Shown: in pieces, positions 1,374-62,578 of the stretch | Numbering within the stretch: position 1 is the stretch's first letter | How the letters are laid out: each line of letters begins with the position of its first letter | Assembly (NCBI GenBank): GCA_037893245.1 | Contig: JBAIAA010000258.1 | Coordinates: forward strand, 868,001 to 932,000 | DNA: 64,000 nt | From: Crossaster papposus | Taxonomy: Eukaryota > Echinodermata > Asteroidea > Velatida > Solasteridae | Direction of reading: 5' to 3' | Translations under genes and position numbers: made by a program | The notes under the pieces: generated by a model | Told to the model about the DNA's origin: nothing | The model's database searches: none | What the model saw: only the letters and a program-made list of their open reading frames with translations

Positions 1374-3240
1374 ATTTCTCTTGGCATGATTTATTGCATT
1401 TGTTTTTTGCGGAGCGAAACTCATCAAGATCCCTGCAAAATTGCCTACTTTTATCAATTTACTGTATAGTGTACACATTGTATATAGGCCTATTTCACCA
1501 GTCAAGGTTAAGATTTTAGACTTATAGTTCTGTGGAAACTTGAACTTGGGTAGGACATTAAGATTTAGTGTTCAGCTGTGGTAACTTTGAACTCTCTGTG
1601 ACCTGCTTAAATCCGGTAAACGATCACTTATTCTCAAGTCTCGCAAGAACTTAGGGTCAAATGGGGGTCAATGTACACCTGATGATAGACGATGATTTTA
1701 AAATACGTTAGATAATTACTGAGAGGGCTTTATGTGTTATTTCCCTCAGTCGGCATTTAGATCCTCAGTCGGCAAACGGGCCACCGAATTATTAATTGTG
1801 ACCTGCTCCGACGAAATGAGTGTAAAGTCGCACAATGCCATTTCACAGTACAGCGGACCAAAGTCAAAATTCGAAGGGGTGGTCATTTTTAAGTTTTGGG
1901 GTTATTTCGTTTCTAAATATATCCCTTTAGCAATTCCTCAATTTTGAGTGGGATCTGAAACCAGAAAACTGTTTTTTATGTCAATTTTGTTGATGACTTC
2001 GCTGGTGATGTATCAAATATCCTTAGACAAAGACGTTAACAAAGACGAAAATCTTTCCGATGTTCACCCTGTTCTTAAAACAACACCCTGTGCATGTTTG
2101 GTATCGTCTGAAAGCTAAAGACGTTGCCTGTTTATTTTTTAGTAATATGACCTCTGACCGTTCATTCAATAAAGCATTACAACATGTAAAACAAAATAGT
2201 AAGGTTGTCATCGACGTAAACAACGAGCTTTGTTGCTATGCCTTGCCGTGTTGAGTTCTATGATTCGCTTAAACCTACCACGTGTTCCCGTGCGCATGTG
2301 CCGTGCAGCGATGTGGCCTCTGCTAGTGGACGTGTACGTACGGCCGTGTGACGGTAATACGTTTTGCAAAGCATGCGTTTATGTGTGCTTTTTTATACAA
2401 CATTAGCAGAAAATGGCCGATAAGAACAGAATAACGAGTGCTCTTCACGATTCTGTTATTCTTGGGCTCAATGCTGCTGACAATGATGCGCTTGGGGAGC
2501 TTTTCACAGACTCCGAAGACGAGCTCTCGGATGCCGACGATGATAGTGACGCCGAGACAGACGGGGAAGGCAGCCATGATGAAAGCGTCGAAGAAATGGA
2601 ATTGGAAAATGATACTGACACAGTGACAACGAGCCTGTCGTTCCAGAAAATCCTGCTCAGGACATAATCGATGTCGTTGGGATGGACGATTAAGCATCTC
2701 TTAATTAATTCTTAATTAAAGTTTGCTTTTATACTAGTACTCACTACTCAGTAAAACAGACAAAATACATACATTATAGAGTTACATTAATTCAAATTTA
2801 TTCAAAACTTCTGCTTTTTAATATTTTATGGTCAAAAATAGTTTTTTAAATGCTTTAATTAAATATGCAAATAAGTACCCAATATCCATTAAAGTGATTA
2901 ATTTATTACATTGCAATAATGTCATTTTTTATATTTCTTGAAAATTTAAAGTGAAATAATAATCACAACGTGGTCATTGCTAAGGAAACAAAACCTACTT
3001 GTTGTATGTGTTGCATTATTGTGTGTTGTTTTCTTGTACACAACTCTAAAGGCTATTAATCTCCAAAACTAATTGGTGCAATATGTGTCGACTCCGTGAC
3101 TTTCTAAGGCTGTAACGTTCTTATTGAGTACTAAACTTTAAACATTTCCGACTTTATGCTCATTTTGTGGGAGCAGGTCACAATTTGGTGGCCCATTTGG
3201 TGGACTGGGTTGTTGTGGTCCAGTTGCGGAATGAGGGAAA
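1374..3240. other. No gene recognised; AT-rich flank
   Basis: Apart from the short acidic frame at 2413-2667 I see no supported gene. The stretch 2690-3130 is AT-rich and of low complexity. There is a small cluster of CACGTG-like words near 2278-2340. Confidence 0.4.
2413..2667 (+). CDS. Small acidic open frame, hypothetical
   Basis: This 84-residue frame opens with ATG and ends TAA at 2665-2667. Its centre is very acidic (DSEDELSDADDDSDAE near residues 36-50), followed by more Asp/Glu, and the end is hydrophobic. Acidic N-termini like this occur in piggyBac-type transposases and many nuclear proteins, but nothing else of such a protein follows and no splice site was confirmed. It may be an isolated exon, a transposase remnant or chance. 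I do not assign a function. Confidence 0.25.
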   Translation: MADKNRITSALHDSVILGLNAADNDALGELFTDSEDELSDADDDSDAETDGEGSHDESVEEMELENDTDTVTTSLSFQKILLRT

Positions 3241-3249
3241 CACCCTCCC

Positions 3250-3485
3250 CCACACATACACGTCAACAGCTTAAGGGAGAAGCACACGATCAGAGGGCAC
3301 CGAATGCCTTGCGACACGCGCTTATCACCCGCTTATATACCCGCACCGGGTACCAATCAGTCGCGCAATTTGCGCTCTGTATAACGGACAGCAGTCCGCG
3401 TACCAACTTACTAAACTATGGCGAGCCTAGCGCGCCAACATTAATTGTTCCCTTAAACAGCCGTGCCCCAAGTTTGGTCAGTCCC
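3250..3485 (-). repeat. LTR-like repeat, 3' copy of the Gypsy element
   Basis: The region around 3256-3480 repeats 13826-14040 in the same orientation with small indels. Shared words include ACGCGTCAACAGCT-like, CGCACCGGGTACCAATCAGT, TACCAACTTACTAAACTATG and GCGAGCCTAGCGCGCCAACA. Its place beyond the integrase tail fits a 3' LTR. Exact LTR ends were not fixed. Confidence 0.6.
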
Positions 3486-4281
3486 TTGACCTAAAAACTG
3501 ACAACAATAAGGAACTGTTGCAAAAAAAACCATAACCAGGTGCTCTGCCACCTTCAACTAAACTAAATAAAGCTTAGTGTCAGGTCAACAGGTTTTGATC
3601 TGGAATTCTTATACATCATAATGGTCTGACCTACTTAAGTCCTTATACAATGAAACAAAACTCTCCCTAACTTTACAAAGGAAAGCAACATTTTTACAAC
3701 ATCTCTGATAAAGTCTTGTATAAACGATAAACTTCTCAGATGGAGAAACACACTGTGGCACCTCGGACAGTCTACTGTATTTGACTCGTGGGGTCCAGCG
3801 GGGTCGTCTTTGCGAGTGAGTCTCGACCCATGTTTATCTTCTGCCAAATAATGCTAAGAAATGTATCTTGTTAATTTATCTTTGTTACAGGTACAGAAAT
3901 GGCATTATTCGCATCTTCGCTCGCACTCTGCTCAACACTTTAGGTCTTTAGGCCTTTAGGTCTCTGCTCCGGCTGCCCCTCACAACCTTACAAATAGCGT
4001 TGTGGCCTTCGACTGTGCCTATATGTTGGTTTCTTCTTACTGTAGGCATAGGTGTCCTATCTTGTTCTTCGTCAGTTGTTGCTGTAACATAAATTATTCC
4101 CCTTCTGTGTCTAGCACTTCCCTATTATTTTCCTGTAATTCTGTATCCAAGTCGGTTCTTTGTACATCGCATCATATGTCTCCTTGATCTTCGGTGAATG
4201 TTTCTTGTCTTTGTGGATGGAAGAATGTTTTTGCTGCGTTACTTGCCGTCCTTGGCTTTAGCGGCTGACCTTGGTAGGGCT

Positions 4282-4795: not shown

Positions 4796-5583
4796 TTTTC
4801 TTCTTTTTGCAAGTTTGATTTAAATATATAAACTAAAGGACAATAAACCGGTTATAACAAGTATCATTTAGATTTATCCATTACCCATTCAAGCTCAGGA
4901 TTATATTTATTTTTCAGCAATTACAGTTCAGTTAAAGTTGTAAAGTTTTGCTAGTACATGTGCATTTATGAACACGAGTCTGAGCTTTATTGTATGTGGA
5001 GAATTGATCCCTGTAAATTAATGCAATCTGTGAAATAGGTAGTTTACAGTACAGGCATCGATATTAAGTCTAAGTTGATTGAGCAACGTGGGCATATTTT
5101 GACAAATTAATGGTAATCCATAGTCTAGTTTATGCTACAACAGCGCCCTCTATGTCATTTGTAGACTAGTCAAATTGGTATTGGCATAGTGTGTTAATTA
5201 GCTTGCCAAGGTATATTATTTGGTGCAAGATGTCTGTTAAGCTGATGACTTTTAGAATAAGCTTTAATATAGATCTGATAATTCTTAAGGAATTTAAGAC
5301 AAGATGATCAAAACAATCCCATATTGTTTTGATTTGTAAAAACCCGCTGTACTGCTGGATATATTGTTTAATACAGGTCTTACAGATACAGGTGTATGAT
5401 TCAAAACAAAACGTTGCAAGTATTTGTACTAATTAATTATTTTGTAAAAGAGTTGCATTATTTCAGCCGAAGTATTAACTTTATTGGATAGACTTTGGTG
5501 AACACACACTACATGTATTTATTGTACCAATGATTTCATTTATTTTCTCTTTCCTCTCTACTTGTTAATTGTTTACTGTCAAA

Positions 5584-5632
5584 TTTGATGCCATTCTCTC
5601 GCCTCCGTCGCTGGTCGGTTGCCTTCCAACTT
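5584..5632 (+). repeat. Dispersed GCCTCCGTCGC repeat, copy 2
   Basis: Near-identical to 4741-4790 for about 40 bp, and inside the same TG...CA insertion. It may mark an internal duplication in that LTR-like segment. Confidence 0.5.
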
Positions 5633-5728
5633 CCAATTACAGGACAGAATAAAAGAGTCAATCTGAACCCACTGATTTAGAGGTTTCAGTCATTTTGTAG
5701 CCTCCATATAACCCCTCCTCCACACGTA

Positions 5729-6440: not shown

Positions 6441-7698
6441 TCCACAGGTAAACCTTTTAAAAGTTGTTCGTGTTTGGAGTACAGATATCTGATATAATTT
6501 TAAGCTGGAAAGACCAAGGAATATTTGTAATATTTTTAATAACGCGAACTGATGGATTTTCACTGTCATTTTATGAGTTTTATTCTTACAAACTTTTGTC
6601 AAGATGGCGATCCTGTGGAATTGTTATGGAGACCTCATGGCACTTTGAAAATGTCGTAACTTTTCCTAATTATTATTTTGGCCAGTATTGTGAGTCCTTA
6701 TTGACAATTGTACATTATTTCTGTCGGTAATTATGAGTTATTGCGGAATGTCAGACTGGAATCTAGAAGTTTCGAAAAGCCAATTCTGAGTTTTTATTGA
6801 TATTCATTTATCGGTTGTGCTCATTAAATAGCGCCCTCATTGTTTAGTAAAGTTGCTAGCCATAGAGTGAATGATTTTTATGCTTCTAATTATGCCTGAG
6901 GAGTTGAAATGTTAAGCTGAAATGCCTTTATTTGTGGGAAATAGGGGACTTGAGCATATATTTGTTCCCCTTATTTTTGCTTTAGGGTCATTCTATGTCA
7001 GACCAACGCACTTTTTTACCTTATCTACTCCGATTTTGCTAAAAATTGCTGTGCTTGTAGGTCCTAATGAGCAATAAATGCAAACCATTTTTTAGCCCGA
7101 TCTGACCTACCATGTGGTCACAGCAGAAACCACACAAATCTGACATGCTCAAATCAATTCTTTTGTCAAAAATAAATGTTGTGAAAAGTAGGTCACCGTG
7201 ACTTTGCATATGTTACCATGACCTTTGACCAAATTGTTGTAATAACGTATCATTTCGAAAATCATCGAAATTAAAATGACTTGATAGAGCATGTCTTCCT
7301 CTATCAGGATCTACTAAGAATCAATTAGGGTCTTTAACATTTAAAATGTGTGTACAGTTGGTAGGTTACAAATTCGTCAATTTATAGACTTCACATTAGA
7401 AATCCACTAACACAACTTACTGTTCTGTTTAAATTGTTACTAAAATTATTCTTGGTTGGGAATTTCTCATGTTGAGGGCTAATTTAGTCTAACCAGACTC
7501 ATACTCTAAATTATTAGCAGTGGCGCACCCAGGATTTGGCTTTTTGTTTGGGGGAGGGGGGCTCATTTTTGTTCTTTCAAATTTCTTTAGAAGACGTACT
7601 ACATTATTATGTGTTCCACGAGCGCAAGTGGGATAACAAATTCATTTTCAAGCAAACTTGACGTCGAATGCGTATGTGGTTAGAATGTACGTGCATAC

Positions 7699-9062
7699 AC
7701 TCTAAAAACAGATTGGTTAAAAGACCAACCAATCTAATTGGTTGACCAAATATTGGTTGTTTTTAACAACATGTGTTGGCTAAAGCGTAACCAATGCGTT
7801 GGTTGTCCGTCGACCAGTCATATTGGTTGAAGGTATCAACCAATCTATTGGTCATTTATAACCAATATATTGGTTGTCCGTCAACCAGTCATACTGGTTG
7901 AAGGTTTCAACCAATGTATTGGTCATTTATAATCAATATATTGGTTGTCCGTCAACCAGTCATATTGGTTGAAGGTATCAACCAATCTATCGGTCATTTA
8001 TAACCAATATATTGGTTGTCCTTCAACCAGTTATATTGGTTGAGCTTGCAACTAAGGTATCAACCAATCTATTGGTCATTCATAACCAATGTGTTGGTTG
8101 TCCTTCAACTAGTCATATTGGTTGAGCTTGTAACCAAGGTATTAACCAATCTATTGGTTATTCATAACCAACATATTGGTTGTCCTTCAACTAGTCATAT
8201 TGGTTGAGCATGTAACTAAGGTATTAACCAATCTATTGCCAATAGATTGGTTGGCCTTCAACCAGTCATATTGGTTGAGATTGTAGGAATGTACCAATTA
8301 CAGCAACTGATCAATCAGAGGTGAGGAAATTTGTATTGACAATAGTTGATGCTAAATTGTAGTATTTAGTCCAAAATGCAATATTGTTGACCATAATATG
8401 TAATTATTCAAACTATTCCATGATTCAATTTATATTTTTGTGCAAACATAGTGAACAATTCACATTACATTTCATTCGTATTCAAATTTTGACATTATTC
8501 ATAACAAACTAGCTATATGACTTCGTCGTGGACAAAAAAGCGAACTATAAAACTAACAACGGCATTTGCCAAGTTTGTAGTAAGTGTTCAGTAGGTAATA
8601 TCTAATAGGTTGTTATTGTATGTATGCGTAATTGCAATGTGTAATAAGTTAATTCCATTGGTATTATTTCATTACGTAATTTGTCCACGTAGGAACCAAT
8701 ACATATTGGTTGTAGCCTAACCATTATAAATTGGTTAAAATAACCAATATTGTATTTTTGCATTTGTTATAACCAATGCAATTGGTTGCGTGTTAACCAG
8801 TATGAATTGGTTGCAGCCCTACCGTTATGTATTGGTTAGTGCTATAACCAATATGGATTGGTTACGTGGTAACCAATACAAATTGGTTGGAGTCCTACCA
8901 TTGTGGGCTGGTTAAATTAACCAACATTACATTGGTTGGTGTTATAACCAATATCATATTGGTTATTTTAACCAATATTTTGGTTATTTACATATATACC
9001 AACTGGATTGGTTGAAATCGACCAATATATTGGTTATTTTTCAACCAATCTGTTTTTAGAGT
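7699..9062. mobile_element. CCAAT/ATTGG palindrome element with perfect 20-bp TIRs
   Basis: The element starts ACTCTAAAAACAGATTGGTT (7699-7718) and ends with its exact reverse complement (9043-9062). The left part (7711-8290) and right part (8690-9050) consist of AACCAATnnATTGGTT-type imperfect palindromes, dozens of CCAAT or ATTGG words in alternating orientation. A 400-bp AT-rich middle (8290-8690) lacks them. No coding frame is supported. Outside the TIRs, GTGCATAC on the left and TGTGCATG on the right look faintly symmetrical; no clear target duplication was found. Likely a non-autonomous DNA transposon with subterminal motif arrays. Confidence 0.8.
7805..8263 (+). repeat. Tandem repeat, three 71-bp units then three 82-bp units
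   Basis: Units start at GTCCGTC or GTCCTTC: 7805, 7876 and 7947 (71 bp each), then 8018, 8100 and 8182 (82 bp, the last diverged). The longer unit carries 11 extra bases (AGCTTG.AACTA-like) after TTGGTTG. Each unit contains four CCAAT/ATTGG palindrome halves. Confidence 0.9.
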
Positions 9063-9562
9063 TTAGTGTGCATGCCGCAGGAAATAAAAAGCACACAATA
9101 CAGCTGTGCAATATGGATAGACTAATCAGGATCTACATGTAGAATTCAAGTTTGCTTAAAGATAATACTCAATATCGCAATCAAAGTTACCTTAATACTC
9201 ATTCATTACTGCGCTTTTTGAAACTTAACGACTCTCATAGCCTTAAATTTCACCTGGATGTGAGTCCGCTGAACTGGGTGCGGGTAGAAAGCATGGAACT
9301 GTTGCGTACCCAGAACAGTCACTTCTGATGAAAATCATCTCTCATGGAGTTTTCCGCACTGTACTGTTGCACTTTACTCTTGTCCACAAAATCAAACTGT
9401 ATTCCTGGAATATTCACCTTGGCCCACGAATACAGCGGCTGAGCATTCAAGATTTGGTCTTCATACGGCCCCAAAAGCCAAATCCTGGGTGCACCACTGC
9501 TAATAATTTAAATGTAATAGAAATTCCCCAACCAAGAATAACAATTGAAACAGTAAGTTGTG

Positions 9563-9910
9563 GAGTGCCGTGGCCTCGTGGTCTGGAGCATTAAATTTGT
9601 AATCTGTAGGTAAAGCTACAGGTTGTGGGTTCGAGTCCAGCCTAGGACTATAGTGCGTGTGCCCTTCGGCAAGGCACTTTGTCACTCATTGCTTCTCTCC
9701 ACCCAGTAGTAAATAGATACCTGTGATGGCTGAGATGGTTATTGTGGTTGATTTAGCTGCTTTGCGCCAAAATGGCAGCATCGAGCTGTTATACTCCCCA
9801 GGAAGCTGAGATGATAATTGGAATGTTTCATGGGCCCAATGACCGGGGTAATAATCTTAAGCGTTTTGAGACTTTGGTGATAAAGCGCTATATAAGCACC
9901 GCACATTTTT
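9563..9910 (+). repeat. tRNA-derived SINE, copy 1
   Basis: A head with A-box-like TGGCCTCGTGGTC and B box GGTTCGAGTCC (about 9628-9638) is followed by CTCTCCACCCAG and GGTACCTGTGA-like core words, ending in AAAGCGCTATATAAGCAC. The sister copy at 36460-36770 is collinear over about 300 bp. It interrupts the right arm of the foldback element, whose uninterrupted left arm shows the pre-insertion sequence. Confidence 0.85.
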
Positions 9911-10738
9911 TAGTGGATTTCTAATGTAAAGTCTGTAAATTGACTAATTTGTAACCTACCAACTGTACAAAAATAATCATAAATTTTGAAGACCCCAATT
10001 TCTTTTTAGTGGATTCTGATAAAGGAAGACATGCTCTATCGAGTCATTTTCATTTCGTTGATTTTTGAAAACATATTTTCGGTAACATATAAAAAGTCAC
10101 GTTGACGTACTTTTCCCAAAACAATTTTTGACAAAAGAATTAATTAGAGCATGCAATTCTCATTATTTTAATACCAAATTTGCATGTATTTGATGAAAAT
10201 TAACATGGTCATGACATATTGTACCAAAAGAGTGGTATTTTACTTACAAATTTCAGATTTTTGTGGTTTCTGCCCTGACCACATGGTAGTTCGGATCGGG
10301 CTAAAAATTGGTGTGCATTCATTGCTCATAAGGACCTACAAGCACAGCCATTTTTATAAAAATCGGAAGACATAAGGTAAACAAGTGCGTTGGTCTGACA
10401 TGGAATAACCCTTTAATGAATTATGTACTTGAATTAGCATTGTGAGGCAAAACTGTCAGTTATGCTGATTTTGGGGTACAAATAATATGTTTGGAATTTT
10501 GCCATATAAATAAGGTGGTTTTATCTGTATTCTGGCCTGCTAAAAATATCGCAATAGTATTATTTTGCGGCTTGATATTTTGTTTTTGACAGAACCCCCT
10601 TGGCCTGGGGACATTTTATGCACTCGTTCACATGTACAAGTAATAATTGTATTATTTAATTGCACACGTTTACATCATAATCTGTGTATTTATCTAATTA
10701 TTGATTTCATGTTTTTTGGGTTATACCCCTAAGTGTAC

Positions 10739-16989: not shown

Positions 16990-17900
16990 CTATGCAGGCC
17001 CGTGCGCAGGGGGGGGGGGGGATTTTAATGTAGAAATAACGGTACTGGCCAGGAAATTGTTGGTTCCATTTTTGCTCTCATCAGTACAAATCCCCCCCCC
17101 CATAATACGGGCCGAACATATTCGCAATTCGTAAACTTGGATGCTTTTTTATAAACTTGGATGCTTTTTTAATTCGGATGCTTTTCTAGTTTAAATGCTT
17201 TTTGTAAACTCGGAACGATGCTTTTTGCAAACCGAACATATTCGCAAATCGGACGCTTTCCCAATCCGGCACTAGGGTGGCCCTGGAAGAACATCACACA
17301 TCGCAGATTCTGCGCGAATTTGAACGATGACAAACATGTTATCGCATATATCTAAGCATATATCTGAGATGTGGAAGATTTTATTGCAGATTTCTGCACA
17401 GATTTATATGATGGCGAATATTTCCTGCGCAGATTTTTGAGAAGTAGCATATTTTTATTTTAGATTTCAAGTTCTGCGCAGATTTCTCAGTACGCAAAAT
17501 TGTGAGAGGTCACACGGATGGGCACCTACATGTACATTTTCATTGAACATTTCTGCGCAGCTATATGTCGTACTCTCGTACAGCAGATTTCTATGCAGAT
17601 TTATGTGCACATTTCTGCGATGTCAGCACATAAAGTTAAATTTGTATCGCACGATCATGTTTTTAACATGCAATGGAGCATGCTACGACCACGTACTTTA
17701 ATACAATTTTATTTTTTTTAAACTTTAATATGACCCTATAAGTTACGCTAAAAATGTTTTATATTTTAAAAACTAAAAACGCGTCGTAGTCTAGTATACG
17801 AAGGGAATGAGATGCGACCGAACGTTGATGGCACCCCCTGACCCCTCTCCCCCCCCCCCCCCCCCCCCCCGTCCCCCGGCTCATCGTGCTGACATCGCAG
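16990..17900 (+). repeat. CTGCGCAG repeat cassette, copy A
   Basis: The order is a G run, a C run (17090-17101), an array of AACTCGGATGCTTTTTGTAA-like 15-20-mers (17125-17260), CCGGCACTAGGGTGGCCCTG, then a TTCTGCGCAGATTT-rich block (17300-17620) and an AT-rich end with a C run (17848-17870). Copies B and C share the same order. Confidence 0.75.
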
Positions 17901-18214
17901 AAATGTGCACAATTATGAAGCAGAATCAGTGTCAAAAAGATCGGACGTGTTTTTACAACTCGGATGCTTTCCTAATTCGGATGAATTCGTAATTCGGATG
18001 TTTTTTGTAAACTCGGATGCTTTTTGTAAACTCGACGCTTTTCTAATTCGGATGAATTCGTAATTCGGATGCTTTTTGTAAACTCTGATGCTTTTTGCAA
18101 ACTGAACATATTCGCAAATCGGATGCTTTCCAAATCTGGCACTACGGTGGCCCTGAAAGGACATCACACATCGCAGATTCTGCGATATCGCGCATTCTGC
18201 GCGAATTTAAACGA
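17901..18214 (+). repeat. CTGCGCAG repeat cassette, copy B, left part
   Basis: A second GGATGCTTTT array (17925-18130) and CCGGCACTA-type block, ending GCGAATTTAAACGA where element 18215-21069 is inserted. The cassette resumes at 21070 with CGACAAACATGTTATCGC, as in copy A at 17325-17345. Confidence 0.75.
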
Positions 18215-21069: not shown

Positions 21070-21965
21070 CGACGACAAACATGTTATCGCATATATCTAA
21101 GGCCACAAGAATGAAAGTTATAGATTTGCGTCCACCGCCCGCATGCCTGAAAAGCTACCGCACATAAATGTTCATTATTTAACATTTTTTCATTATTTAA
21201 AAAAATATAAAAAAAAAAATAAAAAAAATATTTGATTACATAAATTCTGTTCAAAATCGCCCCTTATATTAATAATATTAACGGAAAGATGATCTATGAA
21301 CAGCTATGAACGCAGTATCATCATCTTGCCAATATCTCGCGGCGGCGTCGGGGTCATTGTTGAAATATTAGGGCTAAACAATAAAGAAGTTTATTGACAT
21401 TGCATATACTGATATTGATCGATGGCATGATCGAAATGTGAAATTTTACGATTCATCACTGATCAATGTTCGGCGGTGTTTTCAATCGCCTCCTCTGTAT
21501 TTATGTCATATAGAATCATGTGCGTGTTTGTGTAATTTACATAGTACATGGGACGGGTGCATATATGTATAAACTCGGGCTACACCACTGCTTGTATATG
21601 TAAAACAACAGTCATTAGGAAATAATGAATAATGAATAATGAAAAAAAGCCTCATGTGTTTTCAAAAAGGTCCGGACACAAATCTATAACTTTCATTCTC
21701 GTGGCCTAAGCATATATCTGAGATGTGGAAGATTTTATTGCAGATTTCTGCACAGATTTATGTGATGGCGAATATTTTTTGCGCAGATTTTTGTTGCAAA
21801 AGTTCTGCGCAGATTTCTCATTACGCAAATTTGAGCGATGTCGAACGAATGGGCACCAACATGTACATTTTCATTGCACATTTCTGCGCAGCTATGTCGC
21901 ACTCACGTACAGCAGATTTATATGCAGATTTATGTGCACATTTCTGCGATGTCAGCACGATGAGC
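21070..21965 (+). repeat. CTGCGCAG repeat cassette, copy B, right part
   Basis: Continuation of copy B after 18215-21069, itself split by the MITE 21101-21706. Bases 21707-21965 are the TTCTGCGCAGATTT-rich block. Long translated frames here (around 21723-22072) are repeated short peptides caused by the DNA motif, not a gene. Confidence 0.7.
21101..21706. mobile_element. MITE with 33-bp TIRs and TAA target duplication
   Basis: Ends GGCCACAAGAATGAAAGTTA and inverse TAACTTTCATTCTCGTGGCC. TAA sits at 21098-21100 and 21707-21709. Copies A (17351) and C (near 23190, inverted) show ATCTAAGCATATATCTGAG without it. The 3-bp TAA duplication suggests a PIF/Harbinger-type mover. Length 606 bp, no transposase. 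Confidence 0.85.
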
Positions 21966-21971
21966 CGGTAA

Positions 21972-22005
<34 letters not shown>

Positions 22006-22200
22006 GGGGCGCCATCAACGTTCGGTCGCATCTCATTCCATTACTAGACTACGGCGCGTTATTAGTTTTTAAAATATAAACCATTTTTATCGTAACTTAT
22101 AGGGTCATATTAAAGTTAAAAAAACAATAAAATTGTATTAAAGCATGCTCCATTGCATGTTAAAAACAATTGGGCAATTACATGTTTTCGTAGAACAATG
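21966..22200 (-). repeat. Inverted copy of 17640-17880, with a 31-base G run
   Basis: After GATGAGCCGGTAA and a G run (about 21971-22001), GCGCCATCAACGTTCGGTCG begins the reverse complement of the 17640-17835 end of copy A. The inversion starts at the homopolymer. Confidence 0.7.
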
Positions 22201-22379
22201 TATATACAATGTATATATATCTAAACATTCATACCGAAGAAAAGCTTAAATAATGTTGGTCGAAACAAACAAATATATAAAATACCATTTTAAAACAGAT
22301 ATTTAATTTCTCTTTATTTCGAGCACCCCTATTTTTTTAATAAAAGAGTCACACAAGACAGCTGTTCGTACTCGGCTCA

Positions 22380-23560
22380 GCCCCCCCCCCCCCCCCACCC
22401 TCGTGCGATACAAATTTAACTTTATGTGCCGACATCGCAGAAATGTGAACATAAATCTGCATATAAATCTGCTGTACGTGAGTACGACATAGCTGCGCAG
22501 AAATGTTCAATGAAAATGTACATGTAGGCAGTGTGACCACTCATTATTTTCATTTCTTTCAAGATCGGCACCCAAAATCTTTCAAGATCTTTCAAGCCTA
22601 TGTAAATCAGTATACAACCAGTATACAATCAGTATACAAAAATACATGCACATTCACATTATGCATATACGTACGTACATGTACATATGCTGCTGCATAA
22701 ATCCGTACAGTAAACTGGCGCCATTTTATGCACGGACTTGCCCATGTTGTACGGCACAGCTGATAAGTTGGGTACTATACAATAGCCTCCCGTCGCAAAA
22801 TTAAAATAATACATTAAGATAAAATTCCCATAACCGTTAAAAAGTCCAATTTAATGGAAAATGTATCAAATTTCTGCATGAAATTCAATATTTTTGCACT
22901 TTTGGGAAATCTTTCAAGATTTGTGGCTTTTTCAGATCTGTTTTTCAAGTTTTCAAGATGGGTCTTATCTTCCAAGATCTTGAAAGATCTTTCAAGGAGT
23001 GGCAACACTGCATGTAGGTGGAGTGCCCATCCGTGTGACATCGCACAATTTTGCGTACTGAGAAATCTGCGCAGAACTGGAAATCTAAAATAAAAATACG
23101 CGACTTCTCAAAATTCTGCGCAGAAAATATTCGCAAATCTGTGCAGAAATCTGCAATAAAATCTTCCACATCTCAGATATATGCTTAGATATATGCGATA
23201 ACATGTTTGTCATCGTTCAAATTCGCGCAGAATCTGCGATGTGTGATGTTCTTTCAGGGCCACCCTAGTGCCGGATTGGGAAAGCGTCCGATTTGCGAAT
23301 ATGTTCGGTTTGCAAAAAGCATCGTTCCGAGTTTACAAAAAGCATTCAAACTAGAAAAGCATCCGAATTAAAAAAGCATCCAAGTTTATAAAAAGCATCC
23401 AAGTTTATAAAAAGCATCCGAACTAGAAAAGCATTCGAATTAAAAAGCATTTGAGATTGCAAAAAGCATCCGAGTTTACAAAAAGCATCCGAATTACGAA
23501 TTCATCCGAATTAGAAAAGCATCCGAGTTGTAAAAACACGTCCGATCTTTTTGACACTGA
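22380..23560 (-). repeat. CTGCGCAG repeat cassette, copy C, inverted
   Basis: A C run (22380-22396), then the reverse complement of copy A in order. The early part is replaced by a CTTTCAAGAT-rich patch (22555-22990), then GTGCCCATCCGTGTGACATC, the CTGCGCAGAA block, CAGGGCCACCCTAGTGCCGG and the AAAAGCATCCGA array (23315-23545). With A and B it forms a roughly 6-kb inverted arrangement. Confidence 0.75.
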
Positions 23561-23576
23561 TTCTGCTTCATACTAG

Positions 23577-42843: not shown

Positions 42844-43158
42844 ACACTAGGAATAGGTACATGTATGGTGTGATTTTGCATTCAAAGCAGACACGGTCTT
42901 TAGCAAGATGTGATTTCAGCAAAAGATTTCAAAAATCACATCCAAATGCTCCAAATTCACATCCTTAGTCTAAATTCACATCCTGGGTTAAGTCGTTAGG
43001 ATTCAAAATTCACATCCACTGGATTTGCATCCACTTAAACCAGGATGTGAATTTGGAGCATTTGGATGTGATTTTAGAAATCTTTTGTTGAAATCACATC
43101 CTGCTACTGGCCGTGTCCGCTTTGAATGGGAAATCACATTATGCTCATTCCTAGTGTC
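42844..43158. mobile_element. Palindromic MITE, ACACTAGGAAT ends
   Basis: ACACTAGGAAT at 42844-42854 is inverted at 43147-43157. Inside, CATTCAAAGC..GACACGG (42879) and its inverse (43105-43128) start arms of about 85 bp with repeated AATCACATCC words. It begins about 60 bp upstream (transcript sense) of the 81-nt XYLT exon. Confidence 0.75.
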
Positions 43159-53311: not shown

Positions 53312-54295
53312 TGGGTCTTTCCATAAATAAGGGGGCCAAAGCGTGACATGGTGTTATTTCTCAAAATGTGATTTACTTTCTATATTCTTTGCATGTTCGT
53401 ATGGTGGGGATAGCTCATACGTTTAATGTATAACTTCAATTTCTCGAATCAGATTTTTTGTTTTCATATACGATCCAAAACTATCCATCACACTGTAATG
53501 GAGACACCGATGTCTCAGTTACAGTGTGAAGTGTGAAACTTGTGACTTGTTTTGCCATAAATTAGTAGGTTTTCATTGAAAATTTAAATTTTAAAGGGTA
53601 ATATGTAAACATCATTGGTATACTGTAATTCAGCTATTTTCAATGAAAACCTTCAAACGTTGGCCAAGCAGTAAAGGCCGACAGTTTTACGCGTAACCGT
53701 GACACTGGTGTCTTTGTTACACCGTGACTCAAAAAGTCCTGTCTCTCTTATTATGCATCATAAATGTCTGAATCAAGCAAAGTGCATAGTAATACATGCT
53801 ACATGTACATGTATGATAGATTCAGACATTTATGATGCATAATAAGAGAAACAGGACTTTTTGAGTCACGGTGTAACAAAGAAACCAGTGTCACGGTTAA
53901 GTAGTCACGGTTACGCGTAAAACAGTCGGCTTTTACTGCTTGGCCAACGTTTGAAGGTTTTCATTGAAAATAGCTGAATTACAGTATACCAATGATGTTT
54001 ACATATTACCCTTTGAAATTTAAATTTTCAATGAAAACCTACTAATTTATGGCAAAACAAGTCACAAGTTTCACACTTCACACTGTAACTGAGACACCGG
54101 TGTCTCCATTACAGTGTGATGGATAGTTTTGGATCGTATATGAAAACAAAAAATCTGATTCGAGAAATTGAAGTTATACATTAAACGTATGAGCTATCCC
54201 CACCATACGAACATGCAAAGAATATAGAAAGTAAATTACATTTTGAGAAATAACACCATGTCACGCTTTGGCCCCCTTATTTATGGAAAGACCCA
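53312..54295. mobile_element. 984-bp near-perfect palindrome (foldback MITE)
   Basis: Arms 53312-53774 (463 bp) and 53819-54295 (477 bp) are inverted copies around a 44-bp spacer holding TACATGTACATGTA. The 14-bp length difference is one duplication in the right arm (TACTTAACCGTGAC-type, near 53900). Only scattered mismatches were seen elsewhere. Ends are TGGGTCTTTCCATAAATAAG and its inverse. Smaller palindromes sit inside each arm (CACTGTAATGGAGACACCG..CAGTTACAGTG; GACACTGGTGTC). Frames of 71-80 residues at its edges are not genes. Confidence 0.9.
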
Positions 54296-59514: not shown

Positions 59515-60565
59515 AGCGTGGGTACACATACATGTCTATTTGTACCAGCTCGACACGATCCTACAATAGATATCTATGGATATTTCAATACACCCAGGTC
59601 CACGTAACGGTGCGGCACAAGTTCAGAATGCTGACTTGATAGACTGCAAGTCCAATGCACAACCAGGTAAACGTCAATATTCTCGATCTCAGTTGCTCAG
59701 CTTGCATCACAAACATTTTTCATGTGATTCTGGTATACTTCACTTGCTCAAATTAAATAACTTTTTTTCGGTATAGAGGTAATTGTGCAGGCGTGCGTAG
59801 ACGTAAGATTCCAGTTATTGTGAATCACTTTGACCGTGAAGTACATCTGTGGAAGCGTGCTCTTACAACGAATAATTAAACTTTGAGATACATATCGTGT
59901 GACCCTCAACAGCCATCTATGCAAGGGCATGCTATTCCTGATTTTGGTTTCAAACTTTGTACTCTTAATACAAGATCAGTGAAGAGTAAATATGCAGATT
60001 TTGGATTGTGTGTCAACAAGTCGAGCCGACATTAACGCGCTAATGGAAACATGGTTTACTGTAGACGATGCAGCACACAGAGCTGAAATTACTCCACCTG
60101 GTTTTCATCTTAAGGATCACCCTCGTACTGGAAGGACTGGGTGCGGCACAGCTGTTCTCCTCAAGCAGAACATGAACATTACAGAGGTTTTAAGACCAGA
60201 ATGCACATCTTTCGAACAGTCAGAATGGATTATCGACTGCGGACGTAGTACGTGTACTCTGAGACTGGTCATTATTTATAGACCACCGTACTCCAATCAG
60301 CATCCTGTGACTACCAGTCTGTTCTTTGATGAATTTAGTACGTATTTGGAATATATTGTGCTTTCATTGGATCCGGTTGTCGTGACTGGTGATTTTAACA
60401 TACACATAGATACTCTTGATGACCGGGATGCTCTTCGTTTGCAGGAAGTTTTAGAATCAATGGGATTCCAACAACACGTTACTCAGCCAAAGCATGAACG
60501 GGGACACATACTGGACTTATTTATCAATCGTCGTTATGATGATTTACTTCAGGATTTGCCAATTA
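59515..60565 (+). pseudogene. CR1/L2-like non-LTR retrotransposon, 5' part (endonuclease)
   Basis: GDISIHPGPRN (59575) and the YSRSQLLSLHHKHFSCDSGI block (59677) are the usual start of a CR1/L2 main frame. Then LCTLNTRSVKSKYADF, a one-base frameshift near 60000, and ADINALMETWF, GCGTAVLLKQN, IIYRPPYSN, VVTGDFNIHID and ILDLFINRR, the endonuclease motifs. The protein stops matching at about 60565, where an RTE-type fragment is inserted; the same element resumes at 62579. Confidence 0.85.
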
Positions 60566-62578
60566 ACACCGGCGCGATGTCTGCAAAACTCTGGCAATGC
60601 GAGGTGCTGAGTGCAACACAGACCATTTGCTCATTCGTACCCAAGTAAGGCTTCATATCCACACTTCACGAAATAAGTCTGCTGCAGCAACTAGGCGCCA
60701 GCTAAATCTCTCCAAACTTGATCTAGCTAAGGGTCGTGTCAATTTGCAGGTTGCAATCACAAACGCCATTAGCCAGGCTACAAACATCAGCAATACTGAT
60801 AATATTGATAGCCATTGGGACAGCATTCAGAAGACTGTATATAGTGCATCATCAGAGGCACTTGGTTACCCATCACGACAGCATGCTGATTGGTTTGATG
60901 ACTCCCAGATCCAGGACCTTCTCACGACCAAGCATGCTGCTCTTACAACACATCTTTCTGATCCGTCGTCACGCATCAACCTCGAACGCTTTCAGGAAGC
61001 CGGGGCTGTTCTGCAGAGGCATCTTCGTCATATGCAGGATAGTTGGTGGGACTCCAAAGCAACTGAACTACAACAGATGGCTGATGCTCATGACTCCAAA
61101 GGCTTCTATAGATCTTTGAAAACCATATTTGGACCTAGGAAATCACCATTCTGTCACATTCTATCGGCTGACGGAATCACTCTCCACACCAAGAAAATTT
61201 TAACTCGTTGGCGTGAACATTTTGAGGTTCTCCTGAATAGGTCTATGCCAACACAAGAGGACCTTCTCGACCTGATTCCACAACGGGCAGTACATCCAAA
61301 TCTCACTAGCCCACCTACTCTTGGGGATGTACAACATGTAGTGAGAAGCTTGTCCACGGGGGAAAGCTCCTGGTCTGGACAGCCTTCCAGCGGAGATCTA
61401 CAAGCATGGAGGCACACTCCTTCAGTCGACACTTCATAACTTGTTTCTCCGTTGCTGGGAGACTGAAGAACTACCCTCTGCTTTTAAAGATGCCCTTATA
61501 ATCACAATCTATAAGCGAAAAGGCAACCGTCAAGATTGTGGCAACTACAGAGGTATTTCCCTACTTTCAATTGCTGGAAAGATTCTTGGGAAATTGATCC
61601 TCAAGAAACTGCAGACGGTAGCTGCCATCATTCTTCCTGAAAGTCAGTGTGGCTTTCGAGCCGGGCGCAGTACCATCGATATGGTCTTCACCCTTAGACA
61701 ACTTCAAGAGAAATCACTGGAGCAAAACATGCCACTTTTCATTGCATTCATCGACTTTTCCAAAGCTTTCGACTCAGTGCCTGGACATCTACTATGGCAA
61801 ATCCTTTCCAGATATGGCTGCCCAGATGAGTTAGTCAACCTGGTTAGAAAGTTCCCTGACGGCATGTCCGGCCAAGTATCAGTTTCTGGAACCTCATCTA
61901 CTCCGTTTGTGATCAACCATGGAGTAAAGCAAGGATGTGTACTGGCGCCTACCTTATTCACAATCTTCCTTTCGGCTGTATTGGAGGTTGTCTCCTTAAA
62001 TGCGGCTGAAGGGGTTTACATCAAGACGCGTTTGGATGGCAGCCTATTTAACCTGAAGCGGCTTCAAGCCAAGACAAAAACACATGAGATCCGAGTACAG
62101 GAATTACTGTTTGCTGATGATGCTGCATTAGTAGCGCACTCTGAGGAAGATCTGCAGAGCCTTGTCGGTAAATTTGTTACAGCATCGTCTGCTTTCGGGC
62201 TAACCATAAATGCCGGGAAGACACAAGTTCTGTTTCAACCAGTGCCGGGTGTGCCAGGCACTCGACCTGCTATTCTGGTCTATGGTGAACCCCTTGAGAC
62301 AGTGGATGGGTTCACCTGTCTCGGCAGTATAATAGCCAAGGACAATAGGCCAGACGATGAAGTAACCTCACGCATATCTGCTGCAGCTTCAGCCTTTGGT
62401 CGCTTGAAAAAGCGACTGTGGTCACAGCGTGGTGTCAAGACATCCACCAAGTGCAGGGTCTACCAGGCAGTTGTTCTGTCCGGTCTGTTGTGTTCCGCCG
62501 GGTCATGTGCGCTGTACCAAAAACACATCCGCAGATTTAACCATATCCAACTCCATATCCAACTCGTCTGCGAGTGAC
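60566..62578 (+). pseudogene. RTE-like retrotransposon fragment inserted in the CR1/L2-like element
   Basis: It begins inside the endonuclease end (RDVCKTLAMRGAECNTDHLL, frame at 60570) and runs through a linker to a reverse transcriptase: ALIITIYKRKGNRQDCGNYR, SQCGFRAGRSTIDMVF, FIDFSKAFDSVPG, NHGVKQGCVLAPTLF and ELLFADDAALVAHSEEDL with the catalytic FADD. One frameshift lies near 61400 (in the ADGI-type block, before the frame opening at 61441). It ends IRRFNHIQLHIQLVCE and a stop, short of the usual C-terminus, after a CCATATCCAACT duplication. TGCCAAT borders both sides (60557-60563; 62579-62585). Confidence 0.85.

Follow-up and report, generated by a model that had tools for sequence, protein, structure and literature searches.

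What is the sequence at positions 7698-9063 of the window (the whole 64,000-nucleotide stretch of Crossaster papposus DNA analyzed here), and what might its many CCAAT/ATTGG palindromes do? An earlier note had described a transposon-like element in which perfect 20-bp terminal inverted repeats (TIRs) enclose two blocks of palindromes, and the window sequence confirms this layout: a perfect 20-bp TIR is present at 7699-7718 and 9043-9062, with no further match in the window at up to three mismatches (0.01 expected). Comparison with other copies places the true element ends 1 base beyond the TIR pair, at 7698 (C) and 9063; the latter position is T in the window copy and G in the other paired-end copies, except at one of three candidate right ends of locus L168. 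The window copy is flanked by TA on each side, and its features are as follows.

7696..7697, no strand: left 2-bp target-site duplication TA (from sequence; 15 of the 16 distinct sites have 2-bp duplications)
7698..7711, + strand: left TIR core CACTCTAAAAACAG (from sequence and copy comparison)
7712..8285, + strand: left subterminal palindrome array, 16 palindromes, half-site AACCAAT, spacers 2-3 bp
7788..8285, + strand: tandem 71/82-bp units within the left array, three palindromes per full unit
8290..8680, + strand: AT-rich middle segment without palindromes (none in the window copy or in any of the 19 aligned sequences)
8681..9049, + strand: right subterminal palindrome array, nine palindromes, half-site AACCAAT, spacers mostly 3-5 bp
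9050..9063, - strand: right TIR core, last base T (G in other copies)
9064..9065, no strand: right 2-bp target-site duplication TA

The nine Rfam matches for 6500-10700 all fall below their gathering scores, and a reading of the region as an RNA gene was dropped for that reason.

A dispersed family with fixed ends and 2-bp target duplications

The source genome (1,023,315,904 bases in 1,841 contigs) contains 661 exact matches to the 20-bp end (323 forward and 338 reverse, vs. 0 and 0 for a reversed-pattern control), which rules out a sequence that is single in the genome and whose TIRs are not conserved. Among the first 100 listed of these 661 places, 26 plus/minus TIR pairs lie less than 20 kb apart, 24 of them spanning 0.9-1.6 kb and two spanning 6.7 kb. 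A whole-element search, in which 40 of 2,725 candidates were scored, gave 116 match rows, with long matches at 83-94% identity among the scored candidates; the 39 places that we fetched besides the window come from these candidates and are therefore not a random sample. Of the 39, 32 carry the complete end pair, CACTCTAAAAACAG..CTGTTTTTAGAGTG, altered at few positions, and the ends found in fetched copies read CACTCTAAAAACAG[A/T]TTGGTT or its complement, again with few changes. We aligned 18 sequences from 17 loci with the window copy (19 sequences); all 14 columns of the left TIR core are invariant in this alignment, and the unaligned copies L163, L164, L171, and L173 differ.

To count flanks, we grouped the 32 fetched both-end copies and the window copy by shared flanking sequence into 16 distinct sites; L153, L168, and L171, which span more than 2 kb, were included in this count and left out of the alignment, and the count excludes six loci without a clean end pair (L144, L155, L159, L161, L167, and L172) and L169, whose end pair, flanked by TT/TT, lies 2.4 kb apart at the edge of the fetched stretch. 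Identical 2-bp flanks are found at 15 of the 16 sites (TA at 10, CA at two, and TT, AT, and TG at one each), and a copy at L201 adds a further matching duplication, TG/TG. The exception, L137, is flanked by TG and CA; at this locus (1494-4142) two copies in the same orientation, of 1,417 and 1,232 bp, abut with 0 bases between them. The copy at L158 lies within a tandem repeat, in which the preceding unit reads GAGAATCCTAGGGTC and the interrupted unit reads GAGAATCCTA-element-TAGGGTC, so that an empty site lies adjacent to the insertion and comparison of the intact and interrupted units defines a duplication of 2 bp. Three copies at unrelated sites (L135, L136, and L140) share 99.4-99.6% identity, which suggests recent movement. 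Aligning copies to define ends and target duplication, as the earlier note had proposed, thus gives ends CACTC..GAGTG and 2-bp duplications, and its "transposon-like element" is borne out by many copies, fixed ends, target duplications, and an empty site. We conclude that window positions 7698-9063 hold a single member of a non-autonomous family of cut-and-paste DNA transposons that is dispersed in the genome.

Some copies are carried by other repeats. At L141 (86-3497), one family insertion with a TT duplication lies in a larger repeat that has itself been multiplied, with relatives that include L142, L143, L145, L146, L151-L154, L157, L166, L170, and others; 12 fetched both-end loci have the common flanks of this TT-duplication insertion. 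Frames of the carrier resemble a Penelope-type reverse transcriptase by eye, and Pfam gave no match for two pieces of it. Elsewhere, the exact 20-mer had no match in viral contigs and the palindrome pair had none in the viral/bacterial contig collections; a 14-mer matched in at least 120 stretches of those collections and an 18-mer in 6 (about 7 expected by arithmetic), matches that we read as chance.

Two palindrome arrays around a palindrome-free middle

The element contains 52 CCAAT/ATTGG pentamers; other overlapping segments of equal length (1,364 bp, n = 1,198) average 3.1 and never exceed 9. Palindromes, defined as CCARY-N2-5-RYTGG, number 25, vs. 0.13 in shuffles (maximum 2 in 1,000 shuffles), with 16 in the left block (0.08 expected from shuffles), nine in the right block (0.06 expected), and none in the middle 380 bp (8301-8680), which has a GC content of 0.29 and contains no CCAAT and one ATTGG. 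The dense arrays of the earlier note are real, but its "dozens" of palindromes amount to about two dozen in the window copy and 12-34 per copy in the 32 other fetched both-end copies; its palindrome-free center of about 400 bp was found in the window copy and likewise in all 19 aligned sequences. Across those 18 sequences and the window copy, palindromes number 7-23 in the left array (286-658 bp long) and 5-10 in the right array (346-423 bp), on either side of a middle of 368-395 bp that has none. Left-array spacers in the 19 sequences are 2 bp (n = 168) or 3 bp (n = 100), and right-array spacers are 4 bp (n = 72), 3 bp (n = 32), 5 bp (n = 31), or 2 bp (n = 13). Spacers and flanking bases differ between the two blocks, but in the window copy the half-site consensus, AACCAAT, is identical in both; and, since the TIR terminates in the half-site ATTGGTT, the array begins inside the TIR.

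We next consider conservation. In the left-array units of the window copy, 9 of 235 motif-column cells differ, vs. 21 of 251 cells elsewhere (Fisher p = 0.04), and in the left array of the 19 aligned sequences 1.8% of motif-column cells differ, vs. 4.5% in other columns (p = 0.0017); the corresponding right-array values, 1.7% and 2.7%, are not significantly different (p = 0.38). The motif mask used for these comparisons was derived from the consensus, which biases them towards conservation. One explanation of the arrays is that they are passive minisatellites that expanded within the transposon and play no part in its movement. The tandem organization of the left array and its range of lengths are consistent with this explanation, as is the non-significant conservation in the right array; however, a single half-site recurs in both blocks despite their different spacers and contexts, the array starts within the TIR, the left-array motif columns are better conserved than their surroundings, and the middle is free of palindromes in every aligned sequence. 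On this evidence we consider passive expansion unlikely.

A further explanation is that the family is a foldback element, selected for hairpins in single strands and moving as a single strand. In silico single-strand folding indeed places both blocks far below shuffles (z of -15.6 and -10.0, vs. +1.8 for the middle), a result that follows from the presence of the palindromes. The short TIRs and 2-bp duplications, however, are in cut-and-paste style, and the pattern of changes within palindromes argues against selection for pairing: among 459 palindromes with at most one change per half in the 19 sequences (related copies, and thus not independent), both halves are intact in 173, one half is changed in 270, both are changed differently in 15, and both are changed alike in 1. 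The self-folding structure suggested by the earlier note therefore holds insofar as the blocks fold, but selection for hairpins is unsupported, and we regard a foldback element as highly improbable. It is the half-site, and not pairing between halves, that seems to be kept by conservation.

Palindromes as candidate docking sites

CCAAT is the recognition core of the transcription factor NF-Y, whose full consensus is RRCCAATSR. An array that loads NF-Y and acts through this host CCAAT-binding factor, another proposal of the earlier note, would account for the density of 52 pentamers in 1.36 kb and for the shorter partial matches in the element (11 of RRCCAATS and five of SATTGGYY). Motif scoring does not bear it out: the full consensus has 0 sites on either strand of the element, vs. 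4 and 3 elsewhere in the window, and half-sites 2-5 bp apart would hardly be co-occupied by a bulky, DNA-bending complex. We consider this explanation very unlikely.

Most likely, the dense CCAAT palindromes are candidate docking sites for the family's transposase, a reading consistent with the AACCAAT consensus common to both blocks and the lower variation of left-array motif columns. According to this model, AACCAAT half-sites, two per palindrome, would be bound by a transposase acting in trans or by a partner of the plant TnpA kind, in docking arrays that start inside the TIR. With both arrays occupied along their length, the two ends would be drawn together, and cutting would follow at CAC/GTG. 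The tandem left array would gain and lose 71/82-bp units with mobility retained, a tolerance that we propose reflects a requirement for no more than a subset of the sites. The difference in spacers between the blocks (2-3 bp vs. mostly 3-5 bp) counts against the model, being a poor fit to a rigid dimer. The earlier note's subterminal transposase sites thus stand as the best reading, but as a role that we infer, because no partner with family ends was found in the stretches read.

To our knowledge, most described examples of subterminal docking arrays come from plant CACTA and hAT elements. Here, an animal family with 661 exact ends and near-identical copies has a left array of 7-23 palindromes, and this three-fold variation could serve as a natural dose series for the number of sites that a transposase needs. 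The family also spreads many CCAAT-core palindromes genome-wide, as possible binding sites for host factors.

Provisional assignment to the CACTA/EnSpm-like elements

The termini, duplications, and subterminal repeats bear on the superfamily. CMCT elements, including CACTA/EnSpm, are described in passages of PMC12730594 as having mostly CA..TG ends and 2-5 bp duplications. Termini of the CA..TG form are found in the 32 fetched both-end copies (CACTC..GAGTG, few changes); the 2-bp duplications seen at all but one of the 16 distinct sites, together with the empty-site unit at L158, are within the CMC/CMCT range and equal the 2 bp of animal TRC elements; and short subterminal repeats occur in both orientations, as in CMC/CMCT elements. 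The combination suggests a CACTA/EnSpm-like transposon with docking arrays, and we judge it probable that the family is a non-autonomous cut-and-paste family of this kind (CMC clade) with docking arrays bound in trans. The assignment is provisional, because no partner with family ends was found in the stretches read. Two further observations count against it: the end pentamer is CACTC, and published animal relatives, in excerpted descriptions, start with CCC; and the abutted copies at L137 lack a matching duplication. Plant-type CACTA elements have the pentamer CACTA and 3-bp duplications, and with CACTC and 2 bp the family is not filed among them.

The TA flanks of the window copy hinted at Tc1/mariner, a candidate ruled out by TT, AT, CA, and TG at other copies: five of the 15 matching duplications are not TA (TT, AT, CA, CA, and TG), L201 adds TG, and the variety of 2-bp duplications excludes strict TA insertion. 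More broadly, the family could be a non-autonomous element of another superfamily, such as Tc1/mariner or a TA-targeting Harbinger-like MITE, with minisatellite arrays. MITEs are typically short, TIR-bearing, and non-coding, which is in keeping with that alternative, as is the predominance of TA among the matching duplications (10 of 15); and Harbinger-related elements with TA duplications (PHISTA) occur in fungi, alongside EnSpm-like ones (ESTA), according to passages of PMC12730594. The non-TA duplications stand against it, however, and canonical PIF/Harbinger and ISL2EU elements have TWA and AT duplications and hAT elements duplications of 5-8 bp (PMC4482050, in part), vs. AT at 1 of the 15 matching sites and a uniform length of 2 bp here. 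We consider membership in another such superfamily doubtful. It is also conceivable, if rather improbable, that the family represents a hitherto undescribed lineage of DNA transposons outside CACTA, whose transposase polymerizes along AACCAAT palindromes at both ends and picks 2-bp targets; the array would then be a tunable loading platform, its length drifting without loss of mobility. Literature text searches, judged by their result lists, showed no description of the family, and the one that used end and palindrome strings brought up two unrelated papers; the unusually dense palindromic subterminal array would be new unless Repbase or Dfam already name the family.

For a CACTA/EnSpm-like family, the plant CACTA elements with TnpA-bound subterminal repeats would be the closest functional parallel. 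Plant CACTA/En-Spm elements (Spm, and LsC1 of lettuce) share a CACT-start TIR and direct and inverted subterminal short repeats, their members are mostly non-autonomous, and the repeats, in both orientations, are bound by TnpA (PMC8195511, in part). The family differs from them in the length of its duplications (2 bp, vs. 3 bp), in its end pentamer (CACTC, vs. CACTA), and in its animal host, and no tnpA/tnpD partner was found for it in the stretches read. Its palindromic AACCAAT sites also differ from the motif of Spm. Animal TRC elements (SmTRC1, and Spongebob, which is listed with EnSpm-4N1_HM) share 2-bp duplications and differ in TIRs that start with CCC (PMC1636069 and PMC4298943, in part); in SmTRC1, 2-bp flanking repeats are reported for 7 of 14 copies, and a tandem-repeat region and a motif repeated in the TIR, but no palindrome arrays, appear in the excerpted text of PMC1636069. 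A further link to TRC elements is that Transposase_21 matches exist in the family's genome. Maize Ac/Ds (hAT) resembles the family in its many short subterminal motifs and non-autonomous derivatives, and its AAACGG motifs are bound cooperatively by transposase (PMC3260210, in part), but with 8-bp duplications and other ends it is a functional parallel only. The ATon elements of Aedes aegypti are likewise short and non-autonomous, with TIRs, subterminal stem-loops in some families, and no autonomous partner found; unlike the family, they have ATAGGCC ends and a fixed AT/TA target, and passages of PMC3422177 describe no long palindrome arrays.

Search for an autonomous partner

The source genome contains 27 Transposase_21 matches, 26 of them above the curated cut-off, vs. 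0 in the 14 named control genomes; 10 of the 27 fall within open frames 637-930 aa long, and there is near-identity among several of the stretches. The 14-bp end core (at most one mismatch) is absent from the 27 stretches, which at 3.2-3.5 kb each would not extend to the termini of a large element, and none of these stretches, some of which overlap, contains more than one palindrome. An autonomous element with family ends was found neither among them nor in the one of the two 6.7-kb TIR pairs that we read. The length of these two pairs had made them candidates for the autonomous element, but the pair that we read, on contig C7, proved to be a normal element (L201, G000:C7:2457200-2464000) with 27 palindromes, one of them inside an insert of about 5.4 kb (L201 293-5720) that splits the right array. 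The insert carries split direct repeats (293-430 = 5194-5331, 138 bp, identical; 5039-5200 = 5559-5720, 162 bp, 99.4%), one RVT_1 match among four frames in Pfam, and an HSLRSGG..R...GY stretch that is tyrosine-recombinase-like by eye; Pfam gave no recombinase match in two frames before this stretch. We take the layout to be PAT/Ngaro-like. The insert is a passenger retrotransposon, not a partner.

Other features of the window

The element sits between the arms of an outer inverted repeat, with a CAGTGGCGCACCCAGG stretch near the inner edge of this repeat.

6955..7553, + strand: left arm of a long, diverged inverted repeat that is distinct from the family
9469..10489, - strand: right arm of the outer inverted repeat, broken up by other sequence

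Related direct and inverted segments at 17128-18184 and 21706-23572 contain arrays of 17-19-bp units around TCGGATGCTTTTT, a further repeat-rich arrangement. Nearly 1 kb at 53312-54295 is self-complementary, being 93.6% identical to its own reverse complement, and a weaker self-complementary stretch lies at 42869-43138. A retrotransposon remnant at 59983-62577 has endonuclease and RVT_1 matches in separate frames. Open frames of the window match a Core-2/I-branching enzyme (PF02485; N-acetylglucosaminyltransferases in PDB), a xylosyltransferase C-terminal domain, and a reverse transcriptase with an endonuclease domain.
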